DNA of 64,000 nucleotides from Neisseria leonii (GTDB lineage Bacteria > Pseudomonadota > Gammaproteobacteria > Burkholderiales > Neisseriaceae): positions 868,001 to 932,000 of the forward strand of contig NZ_CP145606.1 of the NCBI RefSeq assembly GCF_028776105.2, read 5' to 3'. The position numbers were made by a program, and so were the translations under genes. Below the pieces are notes generated by a model. It saw nothing but the letters and a program-made list of their open reading frames with translations. It searched no databases and was not told the origin of the DNA. Shown here piece after piece: positions 12,748 through 13,573 of the stretch; the first letter of the stretch is position 1, and each line of letters starts with the position of its first letter.

Positions 12748-12828
12748 ATGGAAGGACTGTACCGCTTTATCGAAATGTTGGCGAATTTTGTCAAATGGCT
12801 ATTGACACTGCTCGACAAACTGTTTTAG
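12748..12828 (+). CDS. Possible 26-residue amphipathic peptide
   Basis: A 26-codon frame (MEGLYRFIEMLANFVKWLLT...) begins nine bases after ubiX, with AAGGA seven bases upstream. The hydrophobic and charged residues alternate as in an amphipathic helix ending in DKLF. Against it, the perfect -35 hexamer of the downstream attenuator promoter (12802-12807) lies within the frame, so the composition may reflect promoter sequence. No homologue is known to me. Confidence 0.35.
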   Translation: MEGLYRFIEMLANFVKWLLTLLDKLF

Positions 12829-12831
12829 AGT
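12802..12831 (+). promoter_or_regulatory. Promoter of the aromatic attenuator
   Basis: A perfect -35 TTGACA (12802-12807), an 18-base spacer and -10 TAGAGT (12826-12831). The predicted start near 12838 is about 25 bases before the leader-peptide ATG and about 150 bases before the terminator, the geometry of amino-acid attenuators. Confidence 0.6.
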
Positions 12832-12862
12832 AGCCGAAATTTTCCACGCAATCGGAATCACC

Positions 12863-12937
12863 ATGCACCGCTCCGCCAACACCGCAGTCTTTTATTGGTA
12901 CCGCTCAAACGTGCGGTATCTTTTCGTGTCTGCGTAA
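12863..12937 (+). CDS. Putative attenuator leader peptide (Phe-Tyr-Trp-Tyr)
   Basis: 24 codons with a weak GGAA ribosome site. Residues 10-13 are Phe-Tyr-Trp-Tyr, and Tyr19 and Phe21 follow. An 8-bp hairpin (12897-12904 with 12913-12920) begins at the Trp codon, where a ribosome short of charged aromatic tRNA would stall. The stop is at 12935. Downstream RNA can form mutually exclusive antiterminator and terminator stems. I infer a leader peptide that senses aromatic amino acids, not a protein with its own function. Confidence 0.7.
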   Translation: MHRSANTAVFYWYRSNVRYLFVSA

Positions 12938-12993
12938 TCTGCGAAGCCATCGAATCCGAAAGCCGCCCGTCCAACCCAACCGGCGGCTTTTTT
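12897..12993 (+). promoter_or_regulatory. Attenuator: pause hairpin, antiterminator and terminator
   Basis: Segment 1:2 is GGTACCGC with GCGGTATC. Segment 3:4 is AAAGCCGCC (12959-12967) with GGCGGCTTT (12982-12990) followed by TTT, an intrinsic terminator with six T residues (12988-12993). An alternative 2:3 pairing joins GCGG (12913-12916) and CTTTTCG (12920-12926) to CGAAAGCCGC (12957-12966) with a small bulge. Stalling on the aromatic codons would free segment 2 and favour the antiterminator. Confidence 0.65.
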
Positions 12994-13051
12994 ACACCCC
13001 CCATCAGGCCGCCCGAAACGGAAACCCGATATGAACCGCGAGGAGCCTGAT

Positions 13052-13573
13052 ATGCAAACCGCCCGCCAAACCGATCCCCGACCCGCAACCTGCCGCGAAG
13101 CCTTATCGCGCTGCGCTTTGGTGGTAGACGGCAACAGCCACCGCCCCGACCTTTCCAATCCCTGCCTGCCGCAGAATTTCGGCCCCGTAGCCGCCGAATC
13201 GATGCTGCCTGCCGTGCGCACTGTCGCCCAGATGATTGCCGCTTCGCGCCACCGCTTCGACCGCCAAAGCCCCCGTGTCTTTACCGATGAAGCCGACTGG
13301 TTTGCCGCCCGCATCATCGTTTTCCGGGCACGCCGCTTCCATCTCAATCTCAACCTGCACTTCATGCTGGAAACCGCCAACCGCCGTGCAGAAGCCTTTG
13401 CCAAAACGCACCGGCTACCGTTTGCGCCCGCCAAACTCCGCATCAGCCTGTATGCCGACCGCCCGAACAACCTGCTGATGATGGACTGCGCACTCAATTT
13501 GGACGGCAGCGATCTCGGATTGATTGAAAACAGCCGCCGTCTGGCCAGACTGATCCAACAGCCTTTCGCCTGA
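13052..13573 (+). CDS. Protein of unknown function downstream of the aromatic attenuator
   Basis: 173 residues from the ATG at 13052, chosen because GAGGAG lies seven bases before it; an ATG seven codons earlier has no ribosome site. The protein has no signal peptide or membrane segment, is Arg-rich in the middle (RHRFDRQSPR, RARRFHLNLNLHFM) and ends in a region of mixed helix (LGLIENSRRLARLIQQ). I recognise no domain or catalytic motif. The attenuator upstream suggests that its expression rises when aromatic amino acids are scarce, but it does not look like any known biosynthetic enzyme. Confidence 0.65.
   Translation: MQTARQTDPRPATCREALSRCALVVDGNSHRPDLSNPCLPQNFGPVAAESMLPAVRTVAQMIAASRHRFDRQSPRVFTDEADWFAARIIVFRARRFHLNLNLHFMLETANRRAEAFAKTHRLPFAPAKLRISLYADRPNNLLMMDCALNLDGSDLGLIENSRRLARLIQQPFA

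Follow-up and report, generated by a model that had tools for sequence, protein, structure and literature searches.

Upstream of a gene annotated only as hypothetical in Neisseria leonii lies a leader region with the anatomy of a ribosome-mediated transcription attenuator of the trp/phe type, and we propose, with a probability of roughly 0.7, that it governs a regulatory protein resembling tryptophanyl-tRNA synthetase (TrpRS) under aromatic amino acid starvation. The window analyzed here is the whole stretch of 64,000 nt (GCF_028776105.2, NZ_CP145606.1 positions 868,001-932,000, forward strand), and all positions are counted within it. The first-pass annotation of this DNA had described a promoter with a perfect TTGACA, a 24-codon leader containing Phe-Tyr-Trp-Tyr, a hairpin opening at the Trp codon and a 3:4 terminator with a T-run, and all four are present at the positions given in Table 1. 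Its interpretation of the whole as an attenuator is borne out by the conservation of the reading frame, the aromatic block, hairpin 1:2 and the terminator, and by alternative folds in the leaders tested.

Table 1. Positions of the attenuator elements and the controlled gene in the window. ORF, open reading frame.
Feature	Position	Strand	Description	Basis
Promoter	12802-12831	+	-35 TTGACA 12802-12807; -10 TAGAGT 12826-12831; spacer 18 nt	scan of sequence
Leader peptide ORF	12863-12937	+	24 codons, MHRSANTAVFYWYRSNVRYLFVSA; ATG 12863, stop TAA	read from sequence
Control codons	12890-12901	+	Phe-Tyr-Trp-Tyr	read from sequence; block kept in family leaders
Hairpin 1:2 (pause / anti-antiterminator)	12897-12920	+	8 pairs; arms 12897-12904/12913-12920	fold, scan, paired-base changes in A2
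Strand 2, core of antiterminator	12913-12917	+	GCGGT; partner 12962-12966	alignment, folding
Terminator 3:4	12959-12993	+	AAAGCCGCC / GGCGGCTTT; stem 12960-12967/12982-12989; T-run 12988-12993	fold, alignment
Controlled gene	13052-13573	+	173 residues (180 if start at 13031); predicted TrpRS-like core without catalytic motifs	ORF, homologues, predicted model

The protein was surveyed in 83 genomes of Neisseriaceae from 12 genera, with the loci of all 79 gene carriers fetched, and by a protein profile against 300 genomes of the order. A homologous leader precedes 87 of 87 homologous genes, 79 of them in the family and 8 in a second family, and each leader holds a short ORF rich in codons of the amino acids presumed to be regulated. 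Pattern search located 78 of the 79 family leaders; the last (G061) was recognized with the RNA model as well as by eye. In the family leaders 32% of residues are aromatic, and all three kinds occur in 78 of the 79. Relative to the central Trp position (0), Tyr stands at -1 in 79/79, Trp at 0 in 77/79 and Tyr at +1 in 69/79; the block reads exactly YFYWY in 21, [FYW][FYW]YWY in 38 and AYYWY in 14. The Tyr codon at -1 varies synonymously between TAT and TAC, and the codons at -2 include TTT, TTC, TAT, TAC and TGG. Such variation fits a coding sequence, indicating that the reading frame matters (one leader, L109, is absent from this count, from the dereplication of leaders and from the promoter survey, which covers 78 loci). 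In three of the eight second-family leaders, all from one genus, the Trp codon is lost (YYYGY), which suggests that Tyr is the constant signal to which Trp and Phe are added.

Would the ribosome respond to the supply of charged tRNA at this block, or to the peptide that it has just made? One hypothesis is nascent-peptide arrest, as in the ligand-dependent leaders TnaC and SpeFL, whereby ligand binding would cause the leader peptide to stall the ribosome and the residues after the block would matter. In most leaders of the genus the residues that follow the block (VRYFFALV and variants) are kept, as this hypothesis would have it; however, their codons overlap hairpin 1:2, an overlap that can account for the conservation. 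The segment changes to AVRFVVSESNGRY in genus g32, is cut short in genus g31, where the peptide ends inside the hairpin, and is different again in the second family, while the aromatic block is retained in all three. Because the peptide beyond the hairpin differs between genera, we regard nascent-peptide arrest as unlikely relative to attenuation at the aromatic codons. Two leaders of genus g32 (L086 and L090) carry FFYYYRW blocks and a hairpin region unlike the rest, and are missed by the RNA model.

Folding of 12838-12995, a check that the first-pass annotation had proposed together with alignment of the region in relatives, gave -51.7 kcal/mol (z -4.68), with 0 of 200 shuffles as stable, and both mutually exclusive stems were supported. 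Hairpin 1:2 starts in the Trp codon and includes the next Tyr codon, and the remaining aromatic codons sit just upstream of it, a placement by which a stalled ribosome would cover strand 1. The terminator has a GC stem and a T-run ahead of the structural gene, and strand 3 at 12962-12966 is common to terminator and antiterminator. The alignment of relatives (A2) comprises 50 of 54 dereplicated leaders; L086, L103, L105 and L117 were omitted as divergent or because the terminator was wrongly picked, and L085, L096, L098 and L107 were trimmed at the 3' end. It revealed compensatory changes in hairpin 1:2 and the terminator: 90.2% of cells in the two stems are paired, and 33 cells are changed on both sides versus 11.8 in shuffles (0/500 as high), whereas pairing falls to 28-55% when the partner strand is slid. 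Weaker measures were the number of pairs changed on both sides (39/500 shuffles as high) and the number of pair types (22/500).

When the 50 leaders were folded, hairpin 1:2 (at least 4 of 6 pairs) appeared in 45 and the terminator in 47, with columns shifted in L116, L119 and L120. When strand 1 was masked and strand 4 still absent, the 2:3 pairing formed in 50/50 leaders, with an average of 6.4 expected pairs versus 1.1 for dinucleotide shuffles. In the second family, GGCGGC in strand 2 faces GCCGCC in strand 3, so that the two match over a greater length than in the window; the terminator is found in 8/8 of these leaders and 8/8 switch between alternative folds. In the window a T-run of its own follows hairpin 1:2 (12897-12925), and the hairpin could act as an early terminator or as a pause site.

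Several results weigh against the attenuator interpretation. Pairing in the antiterminator core reaches 95.6%, but the core is largely invariant and shows no independent covariation, and the whole antiterminator with its extension into the linker is not clearly above shuffles on A2; covariation is thus no proof of the 2:3 pairing. Once strand 4 is present, 39/50 stalled folds still favor the terminator, so antitermination must be kinetic and decided by timing, as is assumed for the trp attenuator. A simple scanner calls hairpin 1 (12897-12920) terminator-like rather than hairpin 3:4, probably because its loop limit is 8, and finds no excess of terminators (2 vs 2.3 in shuffles) or promoters (1 vs a shuffle mean of 0.7). 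With counts at shuffle level the scan alone proves nothing; it is conservation that does. At gathering scores, Rfam reports nothing in the window except a tRNA. Finally, the presence of trpE does not track the controlled gene among the family genomes, given that all four gene-less genomes have trpE and that G104 and the incomplete G084 carry the gene without a trpE match.

The mechanism that we propose is as follows. Polymerase would make the leader RNA with a ribosome following. With an ample supply of charged Tyr-, Phe- and Trp-tRNA, the ribosome would pass the aromatic block, strand 2 would be kept off strand 3 either by hairpin 1:2 or by a ribosome at the stop codon, and terminator 3:4 would form and leave the gene off. 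With too little charged aromatic tRNA, the ribosome would stall on the block and cover strand 1, leaving strand 2 to pair with strand 3 ahead of the synthesis of strand 4, and polymerase would read into the gene. The product would then be a regulatory protein made under aromatic starvation, and it might bind an aromatic amino acid, an uncharged tRNA, an aromatic-pathway enzyme or TrpRS itself.

What kind of protein is controlled in this way? The longest ORF encodes 180 residues, and the Met of 13052 is common to at least 90% of aligned homologues, so 173 residues is the right length. The closest named homologue is an uncharacterized Neisseria leonii protein with 95% identity; a Pfam search of the window protein gives nothing at E 0.001, and its NCBIfam and PDB matches are at chance level only. 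Searches with a predicted model, the structure search that had been recommended for this protein, placed TrpRS on top, in 48 of the 50 Foldseek matches listed and 49 of the 50 listed by VIA. The earlier statement that the product is not a known biosynthetic enzyme holds, but the product does have a recognizable predicted fold, a TrpRS-type Rossmann core, and is probably a small Rossmann protein derived from TrpRS.

The catalytic motifs were sought in alignment A5 (49 members, out of 57 kept as diverse among the 79 family proteins) and in a comparison set, A6, of 23 TrpRS sequences. A HIGH-type pattern ([HT][ILVMF]G[HNS]) occurs in 0/49 members, and a KMSKS-type pattern, invariant in the 23 TrpRS, likewise occurs in 0/49. 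In TrpRS the Asp of the VPVGxDQ segment contacts the indole; D160 and Q161 are present in 23/23 TrpRS, and the matching positions in the 49 members, if the profile register is right, are mostly T/S and L. Lacking HIGH, KMSKS, the small domain and the C-terminal domain, the protein is probably not a synthetase and has probably lost the activity.

On the other side of the balance, the likeness to TrpRS comes from one predicted model, none of the Foldseek matches listed reaches E 0.001 (template-modeling scores by query 0.35-0.42), and the match start within TrpRS varies, being near residue 1 in 11 of the 50 listed and mostly near 31-45. Sequence-profile support for TrpRS is weak (probability 4.5%; smaller profiles P 0.12 and 0.18), and PF13263 (PHP_C) is weakly matched by 29/45 members, with a best E of 0.0027. 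These profile values, and structure results given as the best 50 matches, leave some room for another Rossmann protein such as one related to cyclodipeptide synthases, which have a class Ic synthetase-like Rossmann fold resembling the TyrRS (tyrosyl-tRNA synthetase) and TrpRS cores (PMC7566563). However, no cyclodipeptide synthase is among the 50 structure matches listed, and their Pfam family is absent from the matches listed for 45 members at E up to 10. Together with the predominance of TrpRS in both structure searches, this makes a different Rossmann ancestry rather doubtful, and descent from TrpRS is preferred.

The distribution of switch and gene bears on whether the two belong together. 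In a first survey the protein was found in 35/36 genomes of the genus (own included) and 0/24 genomes of other families, a sample from which the second family was absent; it is present in 79/83 genomes and 11/12 genera of Neisseriaceae, and its profile matches 16/300 genomes of the order, 8 in the own family and 8 in the second. The loci include named records of Neisseria (with N. gonorrhoeae), Eikenella, Snodgrassella, Alysiella and Stenoxybacter. The RNA model has one strong match in the own genome (80.3 bits, E 1.1e-14; next 28.5 bits) and matches at E 0.1 in 78/83 family genomes, missing G084 and G086, whose leaders are visible by eye. Among the gene-less genomes, the model matches nothing at E 0.1 or better in G066, G079 and G080, and G034 gives a weak match (E 0.0038). 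Downstream there is no constant partner, the largest clusters covering 20/79 loci; on the upstream side, 49/79 loci have a ubiX-type gene in the same orientation. The next same-strand gene of the window, for a TonB receptor, is over 1.3 kb away, and an AraC-type gene on the opposite strand comes in between. With one strong copy and no constant downstream partner, the switch seems dedicated to this protein.

The first-pass annotation had left two options, a new aromatic-starvation gene or an attenuator whose original operon had moved away. Neighboring genes do differ between loci, as might follow from a moved biosynthetic operon, but across two families it is this one gene that follows the leader in all 87 cases, the own genome has one strong copy, and inspection by eye of the 350-420 bases in front of its trpE, its two trpB genes and its DAHP synthase gene showed no comparable leader, the whole of that genome not having been scanned for leaders. 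The moved-operon explanation is for these reasons extremely improbable, and the starvation-gene option, with its presumed response, fits. Secondary RNA-model matches (14 places in 10 genomes) are mostly ordinary terminators, and two are a leader before a trpB gene: L165 (G031) and L166 (G005) are a second attenuator-like leader, MNTQNFFWRNWQLHFGAAHDCAVC, rich in Trp/Phe and equipped with a terminator, that precedes a trpB-like gene by about 180 bases. In the own genome, no leader of the MNTQNFFWRNWQLHFGAAHDCAVC type is visible in front of the trpB that most resembles this gene.

A comparable promoter was recognized ahead of 71/78 leaders examined, the positions being consensus matches and not mapped starts. 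The -10 box lies 6-10 nt from the leader ATG in 38/71 of these loci, across seven genera, 31-47 nt in 29/71 and farther in 4/71; the window, at 31 nt, falls in the longer-distance group. In the 38 short-distance loci the leader mRNA is predicted to be leaderless, starting approximately at the leader ATG. An alternative hypothesis is trans action by the terminated leader RNA or by the peptide, as with Sinorhizobium rnTrpL and peTrpL, the downstream gene being secondary. The strong conservation of the leader, these predicted short RNAs and the S. meliloti precedent (PMC7298713) are all in keeping with it, but leader and gene co-occur, down to the missing or weak matches in the gene-less genomes. 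We consider trans action improbable as the principal function, and an added trans role would be compatible with control of the gene in cis.

In Escherichia coli the trp, phe and pheST attenuators are ribosome-mediated, and the leader described here resembles them in having control codons at strand 1, hairpin 1:2, antiterminator 2:3 and terminator 3:4 with a U-run. Unlike them, its block mixes Tyr, Phe and Trp with Tyr constant, its predicted target is a TrpRS-like protein, hairpin 1 has a U-run of its own behind it and many members look leaderless. In 2010 Vecchione and Sello reportedly described a ribosome-mediated attenuator of Streptomyces coelicolor trpRS1, an auxiliary antibiotic-resistant TrpRS. 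There, too, a TrpRS-type gene is attenuated, but the control codons are Trp, whereas the core here is without catalytic motifs and the codons are mixed aromatic. S. meliloti trpL likewise has Trp control codons. Its RNA, rnTrpL, is leaderless and starts with the leader ATG (PMC7298713), as predicted for the 38 loci here, but unlike this switch it controls trpE(G). The attenuator mechanism is thus known, and the mixed aromatic block and the target are new; no earlier description of this attenuator family was found in the literature searched, most subscription journals and supplements being outside reach. In a gonococcal transcriptome study, the single 'leader peptide' passage concerns opa genes (PMC4176332).

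Attenuator control of amino-acid genes points to function, and this protein is seemingly wanted when aromatic amino acids are scarce. HisZ, which is regulatory and unable to charge tRNA, offers an analogy. As a paralogue of histidyl-tRNA synthetase serving histidine synthesis, it is likewise synthetase-derived and tied to the metabolism of its amino acid (PMC9437257), and we think that the protein here may have a regulatory role under aromatic shortage in the same manner. Table 1 of that review of duplicated synthetases assigns functions to the paralogues of many families, TrpRS and TyrRS not among them (PMC9437257); if the TrpRS core is indeed dead, TrpRS would join the synthetases that gave rise to regulatory paralogues. 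More tentatively, and at somewhat less than even odds, we hypothesize an order-wide starvation response, N. gonorrhoeae and close relatives included, in which a catalytically dead TrpRS core, the counterpart of HisZ, regulates aromatic metabolism or TrpRS/TyrRS from an ancestral, mixed-codon and often leaderless attenuator. The arrangement apparently predates the split between two families of the order. The leader, with its two clean and switchable folds, may represent a new RNA family, and it offers a testable handle on a protein of 79/83 family genomes, that of the gonococcus included.

Directly upstream of the leader, on the + strand, lies a 26-codon hydrophobic ORF, MEGLYRFIEMLANFVKWLLTLLDKLF (12748-12828), which is kept in 27/78 loci, 25 of the genus, one in g34 and one in g35, as counted after removal of 3 chance pattern matches. 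Codons of this ORF overlap the -35 box of the attenuator promoter.
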